Positions 1 to 12,205 of a stretch of DNA of 22,003 nt are shown here, piece by piece. The notes below the pieces were generated by a model. That model was not told where the DNA came from. It saw nothing but the letters and a program-made list of their open reading frames with translations, and searched no databases. The stretch is from a virus: positions 1-22,003 of IMG/VR virus record IMGVR_UViG_3300021389_000172; one strand, 5' to 3'. Positions within the stretch are counted from its first letter, which is position 1; the number at the start of each line of letters is the position of its first letter. A program made the translations under genes and the position numbers.

Positions 1-4
1 ACAA

Positions 5-136
5 ATGACTTTTGACCTACAGCAACACCTAAGGGACATGGGTTTACTTGAGCCTAAAGTAATCCTTGACAAAGCTACACGAGTAGAATACAAAGCATGG
101 AAGCCAGCTTACAAAGGTGAAGAACCACCGTTTTAA
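5..136 (+). CDS. Unknown short protein or C-terminal end of an upstream gene
   Basis: An open frame of 43 residues runs from an ATG at position 5 to TAA at 134-136. The frame is also open to the left edge of the window, and no ribosome site can be seen, so this may be the last part of a longer gene. The C-terminus is rich in Lys, Tyr and Glu and ends in PPF. An acidic tail with a terminal Phe is seen on several phage replication proteins (helicase, single-stranded DNA-binding protein), so the end of a helicase/primase is conceivable. That is a guess from position, because no catalytic motif is visible. Confidence 0.4.
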   Translation: MTFDLQQHLRDMGLLEPKVILDKATRVEYKAWKPAYKGEEPPF

Positions 137-154
137 CATTAGGAGTTACACAAG

Positions 155-487
155 ATGACCAATGAACACTTGTACAAGATGCTGTACGAAGCTGTACTAC
201 AGGAGAACAAGAAACTGCGACAGTCTACTATTGACAAATACCTAGAGAAAGCTAAGAAGGACTTGGGGCAAGACTACTGGGACTTCAAGGATACTATTGT
301 TGTAGAATCCCTAAAGGAAATTATCGAAAGTGTAGAGGATACTAACCTTGACATTTACGAGACACCAGCTAATAAAGCCTTTAGCTTGAGTGCCGCCTAT
401 GCTATGCTCAAATACCACTTGACACGGGCTGACTACAAAGAGTATGCTACCTCTCGGAAGCTACATAAGGATATCACCCATGACTGA
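155..487 (+). CDS. Hypothetical phage protein, 110 aa
   Basis: I do not recognise this protein. It is charged, probably mostly helical, and has no membrane segment or signal peptide. The start is supported by an AGGAG ribosome site at 141-145, nine bases before the ATG. The stop overlaps the start of the next gene (ATG at 480), so the two are translationally coupled. It lies at the head of the DNA polymerase cluster, which suggests a replication-associated accessory role, but nothing in the sequence shows one. Confidence 0.75.
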   Translation: MTNEHLYKMLYEAVLQENKKLRQSTIDKYLEKAKKDLGQDYWDFKDTIVVESLKEIIESVEDTNLDIYETPANKAFSLSAAYAMLKYHLTRADYKEYATSRKLHKDITHD

Positions 488-842
488 CTACAGTGACTAT
501 AAGGTGTGGAAAGAGGTAGAGCTTTACTCTGATGGGGTAACCTTGTCGGAACACGAGGAATACACACCAGAGGACATCCTAAGCATTTCTACACGACTTG
601 CGGAAGTAGCTAAAAGAAAAGGCCTTGAAGGTTGTTACCTAAGGTTTAAGTCTCACCACGAGCCTTATGAGGACTACTTGGGTTCCCCTTCTATTACCCC
701 TTGTGGCTATCGTAAAGTAACAGACTACGAACGTGAGGAACTTCAACACCAAGAGAATATCCAAAAGAAAGCTGATGAGTTGGGTATTACTTTCCACGAG
801 GCTAATATCCTTACGCAGTTACAAGAAAGAGGGGTGATCTAA
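480..842 (+). CDS. Hypothetical phage protein, 120 aa
   Basis: The open frame extends back to 444, but the ATG at 480 is the better start. An AAGGA site lies just upstream (about 467-471) and the ATG overlaps the preceding stop by eight bases, the usual coupling in this genome. The protein is acidic and soluble. A central segment (EDYLGSPSITPCGYRKVT) is followed by a helical C-terminus ending in QLQERGVI. The layout resembles conserved small proteins of unknown role from phage replication regions. No catalytic motif is seen. Confidence 0.75.
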   Translation: MTDYSDYKVWKEVELYSDGVTLSEHEEYTPEDILSISTRLAEVAKRKGLEGCYLRFKSHHEPYEDYLGSPSITPCGYRKVTDYEREELQHQENIQKKADELGITFHEANILTQLQERGVI

Positions 843-843
843 G

Positions 844-1296
844 GTGCGTGAGGTAGTATTTGATACGGAAACTGATGGATTGCTACAGGACTGCACAAAG
901 ATACACGTGTTGTCCTACTCCTACGATGGTACTAACGTAACGTCAACAGATGACTACAAGGAAATGGCTAGGGTACTCACGCAGCATGAGACCTTGTACA
1001 TTGGTCATAATGTCATAATGTTTGACATGCCTGTGTTCCATAAGATTCTTGGTCTAGAGATGAACTACCAGCGGTATTCAGATACCTTGGCCTTGAGTTG
1101 GTTCCTAGAGCCTAATAGGCAGTCTCATGCTTTGGGTAGCTTCCAGAAGGAATCCGGTCTTGTGAAGCCTGTTGTAGATGATTGGGAAAATGTTACCTAC
1201 GACCAAATGGTTCACCGCTGTAGTTCTGACGTTCTCTTGAACTGGTGGCTGTGGCAGAAACAGAGGAAAAGACTAATGGAGATTTACAATGGCTGA
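844..1296 (+). CDS. Stand-alone 3'-5' exonuclease domain of a split T7-like DNA polymerase
   Basis: This 150-residue protein matches the N-terminal proofreading domain of family A (T7 gp5-like) polymerases, encoded as its own gene. Exo I is FDTET (D7, E9). Exo II is the GHNVIMFD stretch (N56, D61). The segment SHALGSF corresponds to the conserved SHAL region of T7 gp5. The Exo III region is HRCSSDV, with D129 present but Arg at the position normally held by Tyr (Tyr-x3-Asp). The start is GTG at 844 behind a GAGGGG site. T7 polymerase keeps this domain and the polymerase in one chain of about 700 residues; here the polymerase starts at 2214, with two ORFs between. It presumably acts with that protein to edit the nascent strand. 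The family is secure; activity is uncertain because of the Exo III change. Confidence 0.88.
   Translation: MREVVFDTETDGLLQDCTKIHVLSYSYDGTNVTSTDDYKEMARVLTQHETLYIGHNVIMFDMPVFHKILGLEMNYQRYSDTLALSWFLEPNRQSHALGSFQKESGLVKPVVDDWENVTYDQMVHRCSSDVLLNWWLWQKQRKRLMEIYNG
1257..1292 (+). repeat. 36-bp direct repeat, copy 1
   Basis: This 36-base segment covers the last codons of the exonuclease gene, the ribosome site (AATGGAG) and the start codon of the next gene. It recurs at 1773-1808 with a single difference (G at 1265, A at 1781). The distance between copies is 516 bases, and the second copy again supplies a ribosome site and ATG, this time to the gene at 1805. Confidence 0.9.
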
Positions 1297-1660
1297 ACAA
1301 CTAAAGCAAAGACTGAGGGATATGAGTGTTCTGAGTAACTCCCTTACACCTAAGGATGCCCTTGAGTATATAGAAGACCTTGAGCTTCAAGTTATATCGG
1401 CTCTAGGGCAAGCACAAGAGGCTTATGAGGCTCAGGTGGGGCTAGAGGGACAGGTACAAGAAGCTCAACAGTGGGTAAACTATTGGGCAGAACTATGGGA
1501 ACGTTCAAGTACACTTCTTATGCAACACCACCCAGCCTTTACCGAAGCTACAGGAGTTATCTCTAAAGATAAGAAAGCTTTTATCAAGGAACTTTTTGGG
1601 GAGGGTTTACTGGTTAAGGTAAGTGTCGTAGAGAATGAGGATACTAAAGATGAATACTAA
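1289..1660 (+). CDS. Hypothetical coiled-coil protein inside the split polymerase locus
   Basis: I do not recognise this 123-residue protein. It is Gln- and Glu-rich and probably forms a long helix or coiled coil over residues 1-75 (repeats such as QAQEAYEAQ and EGQVQEAQQ), followed by a small C-terminal domain. The ATG at 1289 overlaps the exonuclease stop and uses the ribosome site within the duplicated 36-bp segment. It lies between the exonuclease and polymerase halves and shares no motif with either. It could be an inserted gene or an accessory subunit of the polymerase; neither can be shown from sequence. Confidence 0.75.
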   Translation: MAEQLKQRLRDMSVLSNSLTPKDALEYIEDLELQVISALGQAQEAYEAQVGLEGQVQEAQQWVNYWAELWERSSTLLMQHHPAFTEATGVISKDKKAFIKELFGEGLLVKVSVVENEDTKDEY

Positions 1661-1718
1661 TGAACCGCCTGAGCTACTACCTCACGATGTAGGAGAGTCC
1701 CTAGCCAAACACGCTTAA
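1650..1718 (+). CDS. Possible 22-residue ORF
   Basis: A short frame beginning ATG AAT ACT overlaps the end of the preceding gene and stops at TAA 1716-1718. A GAGG sequence lies about ten bases before the ATG. The predicted peptide starts MNTNEPPELLPHD and has no recognisable feature. It sits in the 144-base gap before the second repeat copy, so it may be a remnant of the rearrangement there rather than a working gene. Confidence 0.2.
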   Translation: MNTNEPPELLPHDVGESLAKHA

Positions 1719-1751
1719 GTTCTAGGGTATAACATTAGGAGCTTGACCTTG

Positions 1752-1829
1752 GTGTATTACGTGGCTATGGATGAAACAGAAGAAAAGACTAATGGAGATT
1801 TACAATGGATGAGAATGACCTTTCACTAG
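1752..1829 (+). CDS. Possible 25-residue leader ORF or gene remnant
   Basis: A frame starting at GTG 1752 (or at the in-frame ATG 1767) ends with TAG at 1827-1829, inside the next gene. Ten bases before the GTG is AACATTAGGAG (1731-1741), identical over 11 bases to the ribosome-site region of the gene at 155 (135-145), at almost the same spacing. The frame reads through the second repeat copy in a different phase from the exonuclease. It may be the start of a gene whose remainder was replaced, or a coupling leader for the gene at 1805. Confidence 0.2.
   Translation: MYYVAMDETEEKTNGDLQWMRMTFH
1773..1808 (+). repeat. 36-bp direct repeat, copy 2
   Basis: This is the second copy of the segment at 1257-1292, with one mismatch. 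Read in the exonuclease frame it again encodes the exonuclease tail RLMEIYNG, now preceded by ATG (1771) and followed by TGA at 1810-1812. It also supplies the ribosome site and start codon of the gene at 1805. This is the footprint expected from a duplication or insertion at the exonuclease 3' end. Confidence 0.9.
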
Positions 1830-2236
1830 AGCATGCAAAGAAAGTTTTTGACGGTTACGGACTATCTTATGATGTTAAGTTAGGTGGTAGTATGATGTGG
1901 GTACAATCTAAGGCTGGTAATGTCTACGGGTACTATCCGACCACACACAGATGGGCACCAAGGCACTTGAGAGGCAAACATTACAGGGCTAAGTCTACAG
2001 AAGACTTTGTAGAGCGTTTTGTTCTCAAAGGTGACGAACGTAAAAACGCATACAGCGACTTTGTTAAGGAAAGTTATGGGGTAGATACAGAGAAAGCTGG
2101 CTTGTCAGACTTAGTTTTCTACATTTGGGAGGGTTTTGATAGTGGTATGACAAAAAGCGCAGTGCTTACAGATGTCCAAAACCTTATTTGGGAACATATT
2201 AGGGAAACGCATAATGCAAGAACAACTGACACCTGA
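1805..2236 (+). CDS. Hypothetical protein within the split polymerase locus, 143 aa
   Basis: I do not recognise this soluble protein. A central segment rich in Tyr, Arg and His (GYYPTTHRWAPRHLRGKHYR, about residues 42-61) could form a basic, possibly nucleic-acid-binding surface. The C-terminal half is predicted helical. The ATG follows a GGAG site supplied by repeat copy 2. The end overlaps the polymerase start at 2214 by 23 bases, so expression is probably coupled to the polymerase. It has no exonuclease, polymerase or homing-endonuclease motif that I can see. Confidence 0.75.
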   Translation: MDENDLSLEHAKKVFDGYGLSYDVKLGGSMMWVQSKAGNVYGYYPTTHRWAPRHLRGKHYRAKSTEDFVERFVLKGDERKNAYSDFVKESYGVDTEKAGLSDLVFYIWEGFDSGMTKSAVLTDVQNLIWEHIRETHNARTTDT

Positions 2237-3794
2237 TATTCTAAGGTTCATACGCTACCTTAGCTTCAAGCAAGATTGTATGAGAGAGCAAGAAGCATCA
2301 CCGTTGTGCGTAGACCTAGAGAAAGCACAACGGCACTACGATGAACTTGAGGCCCTAAAGCAAGAGAAGACAGAAGCCTTGGCTAAGGTAATGCCTAAGG
2401 TACCAGTTTGTAGCTACAAGAATAAGCCTAAGGTAATGACCAAGCAAGACGGTTCCATGAGTGCCTTAGCTGAGAAGTGGTATCAGTTACTCAAGGAACA
2501 ACACCTACCTAGCACCACAGAAGGTACCGTAACAGTAATAGAGTGTCACGAGGATGGGAACCCCAATAGCCCTAGCCAAGTTAAGGAGTGGCTCTACAGC
2601 TTAGGTTGGAAGCCCTGCACGTACAAATACGATAGGAACAAAGCTACAGGGGAAGAAAAGAAGATTGAACAAGTGCGCTATAGTTCACCTAGTGATCCTC
2701 GTAAGGGTATGCTTACTGATAGTGTACTCAAGCTGAAGTCTAAGGAACAAGGGATTGAACACCTTGAGGGGCTTACTGTAGCTAGTCACCGTATGAGTAT
2801 CTTTAAGGGGTTCCTTGAAGCGGCGCGGCCTATTGACGGGACTGCATTAGGTCATGTAGTAGCTGGTGCTGGTGGCTTTACTAATACACTAAGGTTCAAG
2901 CACAGAGCGCCTATCGTCAATCTACCTAAAGTAGGGTCTGCATGGGGTGAGGAGATACGTGGGTGTATTGTAGCGCCACCACCCAAGATGAGGGAAGGTG
3001 AGTGTGTCCGTAAGTGTGAAGGCTTCAATGTACCTTGTACTAAAGAGTGTGCCATTGTTGATACTTTTGTAATATGTGGTGCTGATGTTGTGTCACTAGA
3101 GGATATGACCAAGCGTCACTACATGAAACCTCTGGACCCTGCTTATGTAGAGGAAATGGATGTCGAGGGCTTCGACCCCCACGTTAAACTTTTGGTGGTA
3201 GCAGGTAAGATTACCTCAGAGGATTACGACTTCTTTGTAGACTGTCAACTTAATGGCACAGAAGGAAAGGACCAAGAACGGTACAAACGTCTCAAGGCTA
3301 TGCGAGGGCCAGCTAAGGTTACTAACTACAGTTCCCTCTACGGTGTAGGGGCTACTAAACTAGCACGAGAGGCTGGTATGACTGTGGGTGAGGCTAAGGC
3401 CCTTATTGACGCCTTCTGGGATATGAATTGGGCTATCAAGCAAGTGTCTAAGGACGCCTATGTGAAGACCCTTAAGGACGGTAGTATGTACCTTAAGAAC
3501 CCTGTTAGTGGCTTCTACTACAGCCTTAGGTATGACAAGGACATTTGGTCAACCACTAACCAAGGTACAGGGGTCTTTGTGTTTGACTTGTGGGTGATGA
3601 AGTGTAGACAGAAAGGCATAGTATTCTCCGCCCAGTACCACGACGAGCATTTGTCCTACGTAAAGATCGGCAATGAAGATCGGCAAACGGAGTTACTAGA
3701 GGAGGCTATGAGAGAGGTAAATGAAACCTTGAAGCTAAACGTAGAGATTACCAGTGACATTCAATATGGCCTGAGCTACTCGGCTGTGCATTAG
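2214..3794 (+). CDS. T7-like family A DNA polymerase, polymerase domain only
   Basis: This 526-residue protein carries the thumb, fingers and palm of a T7 gp5-type replicative polymerase and has no exonuclease domain of its own. Motif A is DVVSLE (D291, E296). Motif B (O-helix) has R364, K368, Y372 and Y376-G377 with T7 spacing. Motif C is HDE at 476-478. A thumb segment near 118-140 (NSPSQVKEWLYSLGW) matches the T7 NPSS...GW region. The open frame extends back to 2172, but only the ATG at 2214 has a ribosome site (TTAGGGA) upstream. An unusual Cys cluster, C264-x3-C268-x6-C275-x3-C279, is inserted just before motif A. It should replicate the phage genome, probably with the separate exonuclease at 844. 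Whether it uses host thioredoxin as T7 does cannot be judged. Confidence 0.93.
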   Translation: MQEQLTPDILRFIRYLSFKQDCMREQEASPLCVDLEKAQRHYDELEALKQEKTEALAKVMPKVPVCSYKNKPKVMTKQDGSMSALAEKWYQLLKEQHLPSTTEGTVTVIECHEDGNPNSPSQVKEWLYSLGWKPCTYKYDRNKATGEEKKIEQVRYSSPSDPRKGMLTDSVLKLKSKEQGIEHLEGLTVASHRMSIFKGFLEAARPIDGTALGHVVAGAGGFTNTLRFKHRAPIVNLPKVGSAWGEEIRGCIVAPPPKMREGECVRKCEGFNVPCTKECAIVDTFVICGADVVSLEDMTKRHYMKPLDPAYVEEMDVEGFDPHVKLLVVAGKITSEDYDFFVDCQLNGTEGKDQERYKRLKAMRGPAKVTNYSSLYGVGATKLAREAGMTVGEAKALIDAFWDMNWAIKQVSKDAYVKTLKDGSMYLKNPVSGFYYSLRYDKDIWSTTNQGTGVFVFDLWVMKCRQKGIVFSAQYHDEHLSYVKIGNEDRQTELLEEAMREVNETLKLNVEITSDIQYGLSYSAVH

Positions 3795-3802
3795 TGAGTC
3801 TT

Positions 3803-3845
3803 AAATACAACACTTGAACTATATAAACAATAACCTATTGTATTT
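3803..3845. repeat. 8-bp inverted repeat in the promoter region
   Basis: AAATACAA (3803-3810) is matched by its exact reverse complement TTGTATTT (3838-3845), with 27 bases between. The arms flank or overlap the upstream candidate promoter hexamers (TTGAAC 3814-3819, TATTGT 3836-3841). This fits an operator or a weak RNA stem, but in such AT-rich sequence chance is possible. Confidence 0.35.
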
Positions 3846-3869
3846 CCTCTGGAAAAGGACTTATATAAT
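3814..3869 (+). promoter_or_regulatory. Candidate sigma70-type promoter(s) for the SSB-ThyX operon
   Basis: The 109-base gap between the polymerase and the next gene contains a perfect -10 hexamer TATAAT at 3864-3869. No good -35 lies at 17 bases; TTGTAT at 3838 is 20 bases away. A second possible pair is TTGAAC (3814-3819), 16 bases, TATTGT (3836-3841). The gap is AT-rich and is one of only a few sizeable + strand gaps, and the SSB gene after it has its own AAAGGA ribosome site. Single-stranded DNA-binding proteins are usually highly expressed, so a dedicated promoter is reasonable. Confidence 0.5.
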
Positions 3870-3903
3870 AGGGTAACACGCAGTAGATAAAGGACTAAAG
3901 AAC

Positions 3904-4416
3904 ATGGCTACAGTATATATCGAAGGTACAGCACAATACGCACGAGTATTCGAAGGGGACCAAGACTTGGGTAAGAACCTCCCTGATGGGTCAGACCAGC
4001 GTGTTAAACTTGAGAGCATCCAAGGTCAATACGTGATGAACCTTTATGTTACTAAGGACGCTAAGAAGAAAGCTATTGCCGATGGCATCCCCACCAAGGG
4101 TATGGTAGGGCAACTCTGGAAGGAAGACCAAGAGGGTGAAATCTTCTACAAGTGTACTCGTAAGCACTTTAACCCTAAGTTCACAGATAAAGTCACGGGT
4201 GAGCAGGGTGTAGTAATGGGGCCACCACAAGTTGTTAAGGATACACCTGAGGGTGTTAAGCCTTGGGATAAGGCTGAGGATGGTTTCATTGGTAATGGTT
4301 CTAAAGTGGTAGTTAAGTTTAACGTGTGGGAAGATAAGATTTGTGAGATGCAAGCCATTAAGGTCGTAGAGTTGGTTCCTTATGAGCCTGCATCTAGTAA
4401 CGAAGGAGGCTTCTGA
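3904..4416 (+). CDS. Probable single-stranded DNA-binding protein (T7 gp2.5-like)
   Basis: The 170-residue protein starts with a beta-rich segment, has a basic middle (CTRKHFNPKF) and contains the stretch GSKVVVKFNVW followed by AIKVVELVPYE, as in phage OB-fold proteins of the gp2.5 type. The tail is short and mildly acidic and ends in Phe (SSNEGGF), resembling the aromatic-terminated tails that phage SSBs use to contact polymerase and helicase. It follows the polymerase directly, as expected for a replisome component that coats exposed strands. The start has AAAGGA about nine bases upstream. The assignment rests on architecture and position, not on a strong motif. Confidence 0.7.
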   Translation: MATVYIEGTAQYARVFEGDQDLGKNLPDGSDQRVKLESIQGQYVMNLYVTKDAKKKAIADGIPTKGMVGQLWKEDQEGEIFYKCTRKHFNPKFTDKVTGEQGVVMGPPQVVKDTPEGVKPWDKAEDGFIGNGSKVVVKFNVWEDKICEMQAIKVVELVPYEPASSNEGGF

Positions 4417-4418
4417 TT

Positions 4419-4622
4419 ATGACTAAAGTAACATTCCTGTACGAAGAAGGCTGTGAATACACGGGTACACGCACTATGATGCTAACACGGGATAAGGATG
4501 AGATGGACCTTAAAGACCTAGTGGACTTCCTTGCTGATGCTGCACGAGCTGCTGGTTATACTTACGTAGAACAAGTGGGTGTCATTAAGGATAATGGTGA
4601 TGAAGTATGGAGTGAAAGCTAA
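4419..4622 (+). CDS. Hypothetical small acidic protein, 67 aa
   Basis: I do not recognise this protein. It looks like a small beta-alpha fold with many Asp and Glu residues and no membrane segment. A full AAGGAGG site lies in the end of the SSB gene, giving strong coupled translation. Its stop shares a base with the ATG of the next gene (TAATG). It is probably expressed with the SSB. Confidence 0.7.
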   Translation: MTKVTFLYEEGCEYTGTRTMMLTRDKDEMDLKDLVDFLADAARAAGYTYVEQVGVIKDNGDEVWSES

Positions 4623-4807
4623 TGAATAATTGGGTAGCGTCTACCATTAGTACAATTATCTTGTTTGTGTTGATAGGGGTTACTGTAGGTCTAATTACCT
4701 TTGCCCCTAGTATCTTTGTCCCATTGGTTATCCTTGGTATCTTTGTAGCTATCGTAATTTCAGGTAAGAAGGCATTAGATGATAAAGATGAGGGGGACTA
4801 CTGGTGA
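4622..4807 (+). CDS. Small membrane protein, 61 aa
   Basis: Two hydrophobic stretches (about residues 8-28 and 30-47) fill most of the protein, leaving a short charged C-terminal tail (KKALDDKDEGDYW). This predicts a two-pass inner-membrane protein. It overlaps both neighbours by one to four bases, TAATG upstream and GTGA downstream. The function is unknown; small early phage membrane proteins often act on the host, but no family is recognised. Confidence 0.7.
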   Translation: MNNWVASTISTIILFVLIGVTVGLITFAPSIFVPLVILGIFVAIVISGKKALDDKDEGDYW

Positions 4808-5733
4808 GTGAAAACCAAATAATTGTACAACTAAACCCTGATGTACCCCCTACAGGGTCCGACTTGGGTATCGTAAATGCAGCTAGAAAATCCTTTGGTA
4901 AGCGTAGTGAGTGGGATTACACAGACCCTATCAACGGTAAGCCTGTGGACCCAAAGGATACCTCTTATGAGTATCTTGAGATATGCGGTAAGAGTCTTAA
5001 GCCCAAAGACAAGCGGTTGCTAGAGTTCTTGGCTAGGGGTATGACTGCGGATGACTTTGAGGGGCTACACTCAAGTATTGACGCCACTATTATAGATGAG
5101 TATGACAGTGATACGCAGTGTGATTACGACAAGCTAACAAAGATACTTTGGCAATGGCGCAATACACCTACCCACGATACACCATTTAACCACGGGTTCT
5201 TCTCTTTTGAGGTGAAGGCTCCTATCTTTGTAGCACGTCACTTGGTTAAACATGAGTATCTCATTATGAGTGAATACTCTCGTAGGTATATCACTGAGGA
5301 TGTAGAGTTTTATGTGCCTGATGTGTGGCGTAAGGCTGCTAAGGATGTAAAGCAGGGGAGTTCTGATGATGGCATAGACTTCAAGGGCATCTCAAACACG
5401 GGAACCCCTATGATGGAAGTCCACGCCAACGAACGCTCCTACACAGAAACTATGGAAGAGTATATCTGCGAAGAGTCTAAAAATCAGTTTGAGGTGTACA
5501 AAAGACTTCTACTTGTGGGTGTGGCCCCTGAGCAAGCCCGTATGGCGCTTCCACAGTCTCTTATGACCTCATGGACTTGGAGTGGTACACTAGGTGCCTT
5601 TGCGAACATGTGTAAGCTACGCCTAAGTAAAGACACTCAGGTAGAGACGCGCTATGTAGCTGAGAAGGTTTATGAGGAACTCAAGAAGCAGTTTCCTGTG
5701 GCTGCGCCATTACTTGTAGAGGGTGTTACATGA
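4804..5733 (+). CDS. thyX: Flavin-dependent thymidylate synthase, divergent (ThyX)
   Basis: ThyX makes dTMP from dUMP using methylene-tetrahydrofolate and reduced FAD. The core is recognisable: FNHGFFSFEVKAPIFVARH (about 128-146), the signature block at 149-162 and the C-terminal EQARMALPQSLMTSWTW (243-259) followed by DTQVETR. The signature is altered. Where most family members read RHR-x2-S-x-NE-x-S-x-RY, this protein reads KHEYLIMSEYSRRY, so the FAD/dUMP-binding RHR has become KHE and the NE has become SE. At 309 residues it is longer than the usual 220-260, with extra segments around 75-115 and 178-212. The start is GTG at 4804 behind GAGGGGG. With the class II reductase it gives the phage its own dTTP route. 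The family is clear; activity is less certain. Confidence 0.88.
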   Translation: MSENQIIVQLNPDVPPTGSDLGIVNAARKSFGKRSEWDYTDPINGKPVDPKDTSYEYLEICGKSLKPKDKRLLEFLARGMTADDFEGLHSSIDATIIDEYDSDTQCDYDKLTKILWQWRNTPTHDTPFNHGFFSFEVKAPIFVARHLVKHEYLIMSEYSRRYITEDVEFYVPDVWRKAAKDVKQGSSDDGIDFKGISNTGTPMMEVHANERSYTETMEEYICEESKNQFEVYKRLLLVGVAPEQARMALPQSLMTSWTWSGTLGAFANMCKLRLSKDTQVETRYVAEKVYEELKKQFPVAAPLLVEGVT

Positions 5734-6461
5734 GTAAACCCAAGAGCATTACTAAGTGCATCATAGACGGTGACATAATTGCATACCGAAGCGCAGCAGG
5801 CACAGAAGGGAGCCACCCAGACGACACTATCGACAAAGTAGATACCTTGATGAACTTCATTGTAGCTGAGACTGTAGTGTTTCCTACATCAAGTAACCTA
5901 GAGTGCTACCTCACAGGTAAGGGAAACTTTCGCTATGAGGTAGCCAAGACTGTACCCTACAAAGGCAATCGTAAGGATGTAGTTAAACCTACAAACCTAC
6001 CGTTGGCTAGGCAACACCTTATAGACAAGTGGGGTGCTGTAGTATCACAAGGGGAGGAAGCTGACGATCTTATTGGTATTGCCTCAGCTAGAGGTGACCC
6101 TGAGACTACTGTTATCTGTAGCCAAGACAAGGACTTCCTGACAATAAATAGCTGGATGTTTAACTTTGTAAAAGGTACTTGGGTTTACTCTACGGAAGTT
6201 GACGCCATTAGATACTTCTACTCTCAAGTTCTTACGGGCGATAGGGCTGACAATATTTTAGGGTTGTTTCGTATTGGTCCTAAGAAAGCTGAGGCGATAC
6301 TTAAAGGCTTGACAACTGAAGAAAGCTTGTTTAGTGCTTGTTTAGAGGCATACCAGAAGCACCCCACTTTAGAAGGTGACCCATATGAAAGGTTAGTTGA
6401 AAATGCAAAACTCTTGCACCTTAGACGCTACGAAGGTCAAATCTGGGAAGCCCCGAAGTAA
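5730..6461 (+). CDS. 5'-3' exonuclease / flap endonuclease (T7 gp6, T5 D15 superfamily)
   Basis: The metal-binding acidic residues of the FEN-type nuclease family are present: DGD at 13-15, EEADDLIG at 109-116, SQDKDF at 131-136 and GDRADNI at 170-176. A helix-three-turn-helix (RIGPKKAEAIL, 181-191) for DNA binding follows. At 243 residues it has the length of phage stand-alone enzymes. It would remove RNA primers and degrade or process DNA 5' ends during replication and recombination. Its ATG overlaps the ThyX stop (ATGA). Its 3' end overlaps the following homing-type gene by 59 bases. Confidence 0.92.
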   Translation: MSKPKSITKCIIDGDIIAYRSAAGTEGSHPDDTIDKVDTLMNFIVAETVVFPTSSNLECYLTGKGNFRYEVAKTVPYKGNRKDVVKPTNLPLARQHLIDKWGAVVSQGEEADDLIGIASARGDPETTVICSQDKDFLTINSWMFNFVKGTWVYSTEVDAIRYFYSQVLTGDRADNILGLFRIGPKKAEAILKGLTTEESLFSACLEAYQKHPTLEGDPYERLVENAKLLHLRRYEGQIWEAPK

Positions 6462-7050
6462 AGGGGGTGTTTTTGGTATTGGTATAAACGATGTTGACGG
6501 AGTAGTTTACCAGAAGAACTCTGAAGGTGTATATGCGGTCGATCCTTTTTACTACAAGTGGAAGAAGATGCTTGAGAGGGTCTATTACAAGAAGTGCCAC
6601 AACCTACAACCTAACTACCTAGGTATAACATTACACGAGCCTTGGCTCAGGTTTTCTACCTTCAAGAATTGGATGTTAGACCACCAGTGGGAAGGTAAGG
6701 AATTGGACAAAGACCTCTTAGGTGATGGTACGTTATATTCCCCAGACACTTGCTGTTTTGTTTACGATAAGACAAACAACTTCTTGAAGACGCCCAAGAT
6801 GAAAGGTAGAGACCCTAGTCTTCCTATAGGGGTAACACTTAGGTATGGTAAGTTTGTAGCTACTATCTCAGACTTTACTGTAAGCAAAACTTTGAGCCTA
6901 GGTACTTTTGACAATCCTATGGATGCCCATTTAGCATGGCTAAGTAATAAACGTAGGCTGGCTTACTTATTGGCTGACATGGAACACGACCCCAGAGTGA
7001 AGGAAGCCCTAAGGGGTAGGTACAAGGAGTCTTTGTGGGATGGTAGCTAA
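6403..7050 (+). CDS. Putative DNA-binding homing-endonuclease-type phage protein
   Basis: The layout matches a widespread T7-like and marine phage family. The N-terminus has GIGINDVDG, followed by YYKWKKMLERVY, a WLRFSTFKNWM segment and LDKDLL...YSPDTCCFV (about residues 105-125), a layout like HNH-related homing enzymes. A C-terminal AP2-like DNA-binding stretch (PIGVTLRYGKFVATI ... LGTFDNPMDAHLAW) ends before DPRVKEALRGRY. The open frame extends to a TTG at 6397, but ATG 6403 sits ten bases after AAAGG and is preferred. It overlaps the 5'-3' exonuclease end by 59 bases, an unusually long overlap here that suggests a late insertion. Catalytic residues are not certain, so it might only bind DNA. 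Confidence 0.65.
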   Translation: MQNSCTLDATKVKSGKPRSKGGVFGIGINDVDGVVYQKNSEGVYAVDPFYYKWKKMLERVYYKKCHNLQPNYLGITLHEPWLRFSTFKNWMLDHQWEGKELDKDLLGDGTLYSPDTCCFVYDKTNNFLKTPKMKGRDPSLPIGVTLRYGKFVATISDFTVSKTLSLGTFDNPMDAHLAWLSNKRRLAYLLADMEHDPRVKEALRGRYKESLWDGS

Positions 7051-7411
7051 AAGGGAACACTTCAGGTCAGGTCTTGAGTACAAGATAGCTTGTGACTTAG
7101 ATGACAAGGGGTACACCTACGAATACGAGACCTTCAAGATCAAGTACCAAAGGAAAATCTCTAGCTACACACCTGACTTCCGTTTACCTAATGGCATCAT
7201 TATAGAAGGGAAGGGTTTGTTTTGTAGTTCCGATAGGTCTAAGCACTTGTTGGTTAAAGAGCAACACCCTGAGTTAGACATTAGGTTTGTCTTTAGTAAC
7301 AGTAAGTCTAAGTTGTACAAAGGGTCTAAGAATACTTATGGTGACTGGTGTAGTCAACACGGGTTCAAATACTCGGATAAGTTAGTGCCTATAGAATGGC
7401 TAAAGGAGTAA
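7040..7411 (+). CDS. Endonuclease I, Holliday-junction resolvase (T7 gp3-like)
   Basis: This is a close match to T7 endonuclease I, which cuts branched DNA and helps break down host DNA. Shared blocks are FRSGLE, SYTPDFRLPNGIIIEGKGL, KHLLVKEQHPELDIRFVFS, KLYKGSKNTYG and DKLVPIEWLKE. The catalytic set E13, D46, E56 and K58 keeps the T7 spacing (E20, D55, E65, K67). At 123 residues it is shorter than T7 gp3 (149), lacking part of the N-terminus and the basic C-terminal tail. The ATG at 7040 has AAGGAG ten bases upstream. It lies between two probable homing-type genes. Confidence 0.93.
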   Translation: MVAKREHFRSGLEYKIACDLDDKGYTYEYETFKIKYQRKISSYTPDFRLPNGIIIEGKGLFCSSDRSKHLLVKEQHPELDIRFVFSNSKSKLYKGSKNTYGDWCSQHGFKYSDKLVPIEWLKE

Positions 7412-7732: not shown

Positions 7733-7953
7733 TGGGTGATGATCTTATTAAAGCAGCTACTAATGCCCACATGACAATAGAAGCTGTTTACAAGTGGGTT
7801 GACATGGTTGATGAAGCTGGCGGTTTAACTTGCATCGGCGGTGTAGCCAAAGCAAACGCAATGTTTGACAGCCTAAAGAAAAATAGAAAGCGTTTAGATA
7901 CTCTTGTTACAGAGCCACTGATTAAAGCTATTAAGGAGCTAGGGGATGGGTAA
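7732..7953 (+). CDS. Hypothetical small helical protein, 73 aa
   Basis: This short protein is mainly helical with a Gly-rich middle (AGGLTCIGGVAKA). No known motif is seen. AGGGG lies upstream of the start, and the 3' end overlaps the HNH gene at 7946 by eight bases. It is part of the same tightly coupled run as its neighbours. Confidence 0.65.
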   Translation: MGDDLIKAATNAHMTIEAVYKWVDMVDEAGGLTCIGGVAKANAMFDSLKKNRKRLDTLVTEPLIKAIKELGDG

Positions 7954-8461
7954 AGATTATTTGGTAGAGGGTTATGGGGTAACACCTTGTGGTATAGTCT
8001 TTTCTAAAGAGCGTGAACAAGAGATTAATAACAGGTGGGGTGGTACAACAGTACGCATCCTCAAGGGACGTAACATCAAACCATACACTGACAGTAAAGG
8101 ACGTTACCAATACGTGCATCTTGGTGGGGATGCTAGAGTGAGTGTTCATAGGTTAGTTGCATCTGTCTACCTACCCAACCCCGATGATAAACCCTGTGTA
8201 CACCACAAAGACAGTAACCCCAAGAATAACAAAGTTACCAACCTTGAGTGGGTAACTCATGAAGAAAACATGCGTTATGCCTCTGGGGATGGAAATATTA
8301 AGAATTTCTACGGGAAACAGAAGTTGAAACCTTCTGACTGTACGGATAGTGTACTTCTGAAGGAGTATGAACGTGTAGGGAGTATCACGAAAATGGGAGG
8401 TTTTATGGGTTGCAGTAGGACGACTATTGGGCGTTATATGAAAAAAAGGGAGCTTCTGTAA
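7946..8461 (+). CDS. HNH homing endonuclease
   Basis: The protein has a central HNH_3-type domain: VHRLVASVYLPNP (67-79), then CVHHKDSNPKNNKVTNLEWV (84-103), with H86, H87, D89 and N99 in the usual places, and EENMRYA after it. The N-terminal region (YGVTPCGIVFS ... GRYQYVHL) looks like a NUMOD-type recognition segment. The C-terminus (SITKMGGFMGCSRTTIGRYM) looks like a helix-turn-helix. This recognition-HNH-HTH order is typical of free-standing phage homing nucleases that cut related phage genomes. It is inserted between small ORFs and the phosphoesterase gene. The start has AAGGAG upstream. Confidence 0.88.
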   Translation: MGKDYLVEGYGVTPCGIVFSKEREQEINNRWGGTTVRILKGRNIKPYTDSKGRYQYVHLGGDARVSVHRLVASVYLPNPDDKPCVHHKDSNPKNNKVTNLEWVTHEENMRYASGDGNIKNFYGKQKLKPSDCTDSVLLKEYERVGSITKMGGFMGCSRTTIGRYMKKRELL

Positions 8462-12128: not shown

Positions 12129-12205
12129 GGCCAATTAGCTCAACTGGATAGAGCAATCCCCTCCTAAGGGATAGGTTACGTGTTCGACTCACGTATTGGC
12201 CGCCA
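12129..12205 (+). tRNA. tRNA-Arg (anticodon CCU)
   Basis: A full cloverleaf can be drawn. The acceptor stem is GGCCAAT with ATTGGCC, the D arm is GCTC with GAGC, the anticodon stem is ATCCC with GGGAT around loop CTCCTAA (anticodon CCT), and the T arm is ACGTG with CACGT around TTCGACT. The discriminator G and an encoded CCA end (12203-12205) follow, giving 77 nucleotides. It reads AGG, an Arg codon that recurs in this phage's genes and is rare in many bacteria, so it probably supplements the host supply. Confidence 0.93.

Follow-up and report, generated by a model that had tools for sequence, protein, structure and literature searches.

Separate exonuclease and polymerase genes for a family A DNA polymerase have been published for every member of the LUZ24 group and reported for phiEco32 (PMC3517423; PMC3890496). 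Such separate genes, exo and pol, encode the two halves of a T7 gp5-like enzyme in the stretch of DNA analysed here (the window), a 22,003-base IMG/VR virus record from a marine phage (IMGVR_UViG_3300021389_000172, positions 1 to 22,003), with two further open reading frames (ORFs), ORF2 and ORF3, lying between them. In the LUZ24 group (LUZ24, PaP3, tf, phiIBB-PAA2 and UFV-P2, with the designations 'DNA polymerase part I' and 'DNA polymerase part II') the genes for an exonuclease of about 170 and a polymerase of about 545 amino acids are likewise separate with unrelated small ORFs between them, but the intervening 1.9-2.1 kb hold several small ORFs including a holin, and identity with the window clade is about 23-30%. 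That much closer relatives of the window possess a fused gene speaks for independent splits in the two groups, LUZ24 itself standing outside the trees described below.

Equally, a family A polymerase in two ORFs has been described for the OM43 phages MEP401 and MEP402 (PMC10580990), where a small ORF of no known function lies between the two polymerase ORFs; there, however, the first ORF also holds an N-terminal part of the polymerase domain, and the cut is thus inside this domain. In T4-type phages, gene 43 is split as 43A/43B (phages 25 and 44RR) and nrdA is split by mobE in Aeh1 (PMC2988022). Again a replication gene yields two polypeptides, in some cases with a homing endonuclease at the split, and the halves co-purify and are active, but the proteins concerned are a family B polymerase or a ribonucleotide reductase, non-homologous to the enzyme considered here, and the cargo in the window clade is mostly non-nuclease. 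T7 gp5 shares its fold and domain order with the fused gene product of a relative (contig L006), and unlike the enzyme of the window is one polypeptide.

Literature searches for this exact arrangement turned up no cases other than those of LUZ24, phiEco32, OM43 and T4. The split arrangement itself is thus already known, while the series of intermediates, the overlap of exo tail and ribosome site used by varied cargo, and the duplicated tail are new as far as the searches reach. Close relatives exist in every state, fused, split and empty, with one cargo gene or with several; the evolutionary intermediates are thus preserved unusually well, and the stages by which a gene is split can be followed.

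The two genes and the cut between them

The features of the locus are as follows.

844 to 1296, plus strand: exo, stand-alone 3'-5' exonuclease half of a T7 gp5-like family A DNA polymerase; 150 amino acids, GTG start
1245 to 1296, plus strand: exo 3' tail, copy A of a direct repeat; last codons and stop of exo, also GGAG ribosome site and ATG of ORF2
1289 to 1660, plus strand: ORF2, 123 amino acids, putative cargo ORF without Pfam family
1761 to 1812, plus strand: exo 3' tail, copy B; some 16 codons can still be read as the C-terminus of exo; also ribosome site and ATG of ORF3; probable recombination scar
1805 to 2236, plus strand: ORF3, 143 amino acids, putative cargo ORF without Pfam family
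2214 to 3794, plus strand: pol, stand-alone thumb/palm/fingers half of a family A DNA polymerase; 526 amino acids, likely ATG at 2214 after TTAGGGA

An earlier note, made from the sequence alone, had described separate exonuclease and polymerase genes with two non-polymerase ORFs in the gap, and both statements are confirmed. The exo ORF covers residues 670-830 of the PHROG 17 profile 'DNA polymerase' (E 5.5e-26) and the pol ORF the adjoining residues 836-1230 (E 7e-58), with an additional PF00476 match in pol (E 2.7e-11). As a longer, mechanically called pol ORF begins at 2172 and homology starts only around residue 15 of that ORF, the ATG at 2214 is the likely start. Exo is 65-67% identical to stand-alone exo genes of IMG/VR, and in the nearest phage isolates found by tblastn, for example Roseobacter phage CRP-6, exo and pol are part of one uninterrupted gene. 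A search of genome_contigs for bacterial or prophage relatives of pol found none.

The proposal that both halves keep their main motifs holds for the catalytic residues D7, E9, D61 and D129 of exo (exo I DxE, exo II D and exo III D), invariant in 19 sequences, and for pol motifs A (DxxxxE; D291..E296), B (RxxxKxxxYxxxYG; R364..K368..Y372..Y376-G377) and C (HDE; H476-D477-E478), invariant across 14 sequences, but not for the tyrosine of exo III. T7 exo III has this tyrosine; the window clade, in fused and split members alike, has arginine in its place (R125xxxD129, not Tyr-xxx-Asp), so that the YxxxD tyrosine, which is usual for family A but does not strictly define it, is absent throughout the clade. 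Exo profile positions 1-86 align with T7 residues 1-100.

For the fused L006 protein, a model built on an alignment of 18 sequences has a mean predicted local distance difference test (pLDDT) score of 90.7. This model, on which alone the T7-like fold was seen, matches T7 DNA polymerase over its whole length, and T7 chains head the Foldseek matches (E 1.7e-25; VIA Z about 30 for L006 residues 1-631 against T7 1-704). Around the cut it comprises helix 121-150, the last of the exonuclease, loop 151-153 and helix 154-176, the first of the thumb, and the split falls in the three-residue loop. Because this loop lies between helices, each half is predicted to be a whole domain; as modelled, the cut is a natural domain boundary that leaves both domains complete. 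Across gene pairs of the clade, the ratio of non-synonymous to synonymous substitutions (dN/dS) ranges from 0.015 to 0.19 in exo and from 0.08 to 0.24 in pol, which shows purifying selection on each half. The window exo has values of 0.14 and 0.19 (against L046 and L001), with synonymous sites near saturation.

Several irregularities of the two genes were recorded. The first half of the window exo (844-1080) is about 69% identical to relatives at the nucleotide level versus about 77-78% for the second half, which suggests a recombinant or a fast-evolving exo. Just before motif A of pol (2976-3075) there is a Cys-rich insert of about 27 amino acids (ECVRKCEGFNVPCTKEC), missing in most relatives, and at the same spot the pol of L014 carries a different insert with two CxxCxGxG-type motifs (CPVCKGHG and CYRCKGKG), which recall the DnaJ-like motif described in HMO-2011-type polymerases (PMC8528129); an insert in the exo of L158 (1593-2096), with CEACQGDG and CEKCQGTG, is likewise DnaJ zinc-finger-like. 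In the alignment of the palm (window 3076-3400 and relatives), two allele types are seen between motifs A and B, LED..KVTNYS versus LES..FKPANYAGVYG. These types cut across the tree, and the palm is thus mosaic in its own right.

The junction in related contigs and the exonuclease tail

Relatives were gathered by IMG/VR scans with the four ORFs of the locus and with the tail pattern described below, and their junctions then classified, L076 being left unscored. The split, with the halves in different frames, is present in at least 14 contigs besides the window, and the gap contents, the conservation of which had been proposed as a check, vary between HNH and methyltransferase genes, small ORFs and nothing. 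In eight relatives the genes overlap or are a few bases apart (L001, L002, L003, L009/L010, L050 and L071, and the more distant L023 and L072). In L005/L138, a gene for a 213-amino-acid HNH, endonuclease VII-like protein lies exactly between the halves (PHROG 1035, E 6e-23), while the gap holds an ORF of 58 amino acids in L046, an ORF of about 72-77 amino acids in L008/L012/L013, and a 44-amino-acid ORF plus a methyltransferase-like gene of 175 amino acids in L014. A 236-amino-acid N6/N4 methyltransferase directly follows exo in L139, the contig of which stops before pol; L004 is probably another split member, its contig ending short of exo. The gene is fused in L006/L007, in L144 and in all relatives of about 45% identity save L023 and L072. 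Wherever a contig shows both genes, exo adjoins pol or sits within about 1 kb of it. A small CxxC-motif ORF occurs at varying places around exo and pol (L004 4-261; L001 4189-4431; L072 3398-3640; L076 4441-4656), and from these placements appears to be another mobile accessory gene.

The ORFs of the window are found again in some of these gaps. ORF2 starts (ATG at 1289) inside the 3' end of exo, the final codons of which hold its ribosome site, a feature overlooked by the earlier note; homologues occur in the gap of L049 (62%), as one of two ORFs, and in L001 (69%), where the ORF precedes exo. That ORF2 is upstream of exo in L001 and downstream in L049 and the window agrees with reshuffling around exo. 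ORF3 homologues immediately precede pol in L148 (48%), as the sole gap gene, and in L158 (56%), as the last of three; at the sensitivity used, no homologue was found outside the exo-pol junction in IMG/VR (3 of 3 contigs, the window included, have it there), and none among isolates. Neither ORF matches a nuclease family in Pfam or PHROG. The single-sequence structure model of ORF3 is weak (pLDDT 64). We infer that ORF2 and ORF3 are passengers.

Matched contigs illustrate the different states of the junction. The empty and occupied junctions of L050 and L046 are flanked by genes with 91% identity for both exo and pol, and L002 and L005 (exo 89%) differ by the HNH insert. Between fused L006 and split L008 (exo 93%), 245 nucleotides stand in place of only 41, and the insert comes with a swapped exo tail. 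These three pairs are suited to asking whether a replicative polymerase, an essential enzyme, can bear the cut, and at which cost in fidelity. On both the pol and the exo tree three changes between split and fused are needed, all forced by strongly supported (starred) branches; as the trees are unrooted, the counts carry no direction. A single event is insufficient to explain the distribution. Furthermore, the two trees are incongruent, with L008 and L012 sharing exo and insert while their pol genes group apart. From the compared contigs, the junction presents itself as a cargo slot in which related phages repeatedly place unrelated genes. The idea that an out-of-frame start and ribosome site pre-existed in the fused genes was dropped, as the motif used located the junction in only 3 of 43 fused genes and such a start was present in none of the 3.

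The window carries, in addition, a trace of such exchange that was equally missed by the earlier note. A 52-base repeat, 1245-1296, recurs at 1761-1812 with 90% identity, and the second copy, immediately ahead of ORF3, still encodes the exo C-terminus, WLWMKQKKRLMEIYNG. In each copy, the M-E-I-Y-N-G codons provide GGAG and ATG to the next gene. A degenerate pattern of the tail matches only these two copies in the window and occurs in 0 of 100 shuffles. Copy B agrees with the L046 exo tail at 47 of 48 positions (96% over 53 nucleotides) and with copy A of the window at 43 of 48. Because copy B is closer to the tail of L046 than to that of its own exo, the window is probably a recombinant with a scar. 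Two histories, unranked, are suggested: either the sequence from 1761 onward came out of a genome with the order exo-ORF3-pol, and exo-ORF2 is of other source, or a new exo came in upstream of an older one, of which deletion left only the tail. The order exo-ORF3-pol, expected for a recombinant, was later found in L148. It is tentatively conceivable that the exo tail of about 50 bases, with its ribosome site and start codon, is a portable socket that travels between phages together with cargo genes; if so, the exo-pol junction would serve accessory genes as a dedicated docking point, and the second tail would record a past exchange.

Explanations of the split locus

The explanation that we consider probable is a two-polypeptide, T7 gp5-like enzyme which is split at a domain boundary and has a junction open to cargo exchange. 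One operon or transcript would give two polypeptides, the proofreading exonuclease and the polymerase, parted at the domain boundary, with the final exo codons (about L-x-E-I-Y-N-G-stop) doubling as ribosome site and start codon for the next gene, pol in some relatives and cargo in others. After the cut, the junction would have been tolerated, and genes gained, lost and swapped there by recombination. The window would then join two types of junction, exo-ORF2 and (exo tail)-ORF3-pol, with the second tail retained as ribosome site of ORF3. Finally, the two proteins would probably associate non-covalently into one proofreading polymerase; with a natural family A polymerase in two parts, it could become possible to add proofreading in trans or to leave it out.

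Several points weigh against this explanation. Binding of exo to pol and working proofreading are what we infer from the complete domains, the constant neighbourhood and the selection acting, and by analogy with the T4-type split polymerases. Within the clade, the exo of the window has diverged most and evolves fastest (end branch 0.54), and some relaxation or its replacement is possible. The restriction of ORF3 to the exo-pol junction could mean a functional link. The number and direction of fissions and fusions are not readable from unrooted change counts, pol is mosaic, and the close relatives are all metagenome contigs.

Among the alternatives, a homing endonuclease may have made the split and drive it, an HNH gene homing into the junction with co-conversion of the exo tail, and the small ORFs being leftovers or hitch-hikers. 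This account, which concerns the origin of the split and is compatible with a two-polypeptide enzyme, is possible though doubtful: the HNH, endonuclease VII-like gene of L005/L138 sits exactly in the gap, an exchanged exo tail accompanies the inserts of L006/L008 and L050/L046, and T4-type phages offer precedents (PMC2988022), but a nuclease is only one type of insert, the ORFs of the window lack a nuclease domain, several splits are insert-free and resemble frameshift or overlap events, and the methyltransferase cargo is left unexplained. It is unlikely that the exonuclease has left the polymerase to become an independent nuclease, with a polymerase devoid of built-in proofreading. In favour of such a departure are the putative nature of exo-pol binding and the incongruent trees, as with L008/L012, which indicate that partners were exchanged; on the other hand, exo stays close to pol in every contig showing both, exo is under purifying selection and the cut leaves both domains complete, and the halves of T4-type split polymerases co-purify and are active (PMC2988022). 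Even less probable is a role of ORF3, and perhaps of ORF2, as a subunit bridging exonuclease and polymerase or aiding the split enzyme. The position of ORF3 homologues, only between exo and pol and directly before pol in the window, L148 and L158, fits a bridge, but other relatives hold unrelated gap genes (HNH nuclease, methyltransferases), ORF2 lies outside the gap in L001, and since the gap is empty or nearly so in eight split relatives, a bridging protein is unneeded. The earlier note had left inserts and bridge side by side; the empty or differently filled gaps of relatives favour inserts.

Two further readings have very little to recommend them. Rejoining of the parts in the RNA or the protein, through an intron, an intein or a programmed frameshift, has precedents in that phage polymerase genes with introns are known and an intron has been proposed for other split polymerases (PMC10580990; PMC3890496), but the halves are separated by a stop codon and by two genes that each have a start, and where they overlap in relatives their frames differ and inspection shows no evident slippery site. 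A self-splicing intron was rejected, as Rfam returned nothing for window 1-6000 up to E 1 and, at gathering score, no intron in any of ten relatives. Equally far-fetched is a broken gene, from decay or from an assembly or sequencing error. The uninterrupted gene that the earlier note regarded as a sign of such an error does exist in related contigs (L006/L007 and L144), but the split is shared by many independent contigs, dN/dS is well below 1 on both sides and the active sites are intact; error and decay were rejected on recurrence and selection. The view of a working split enzyme rather than decay, put forward earlier, is supported by this recurrence, the low dN/dS and the kept active-site residues.

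Elsewhere in the window

Beyond the polymerase locus, the window contains a T7-type endonuclease I at 7040-7411 (PF05367, E 1.9e-54) and, at 7946-8461, an ORF that by eye only resembles an HNH homing endonuclease (HHKDSNPKNNKVTNLEWVTHEENM). A transfer RNA gene lies at 12129-12202 on the plus strand (Rfam RF00005, 65 bits).

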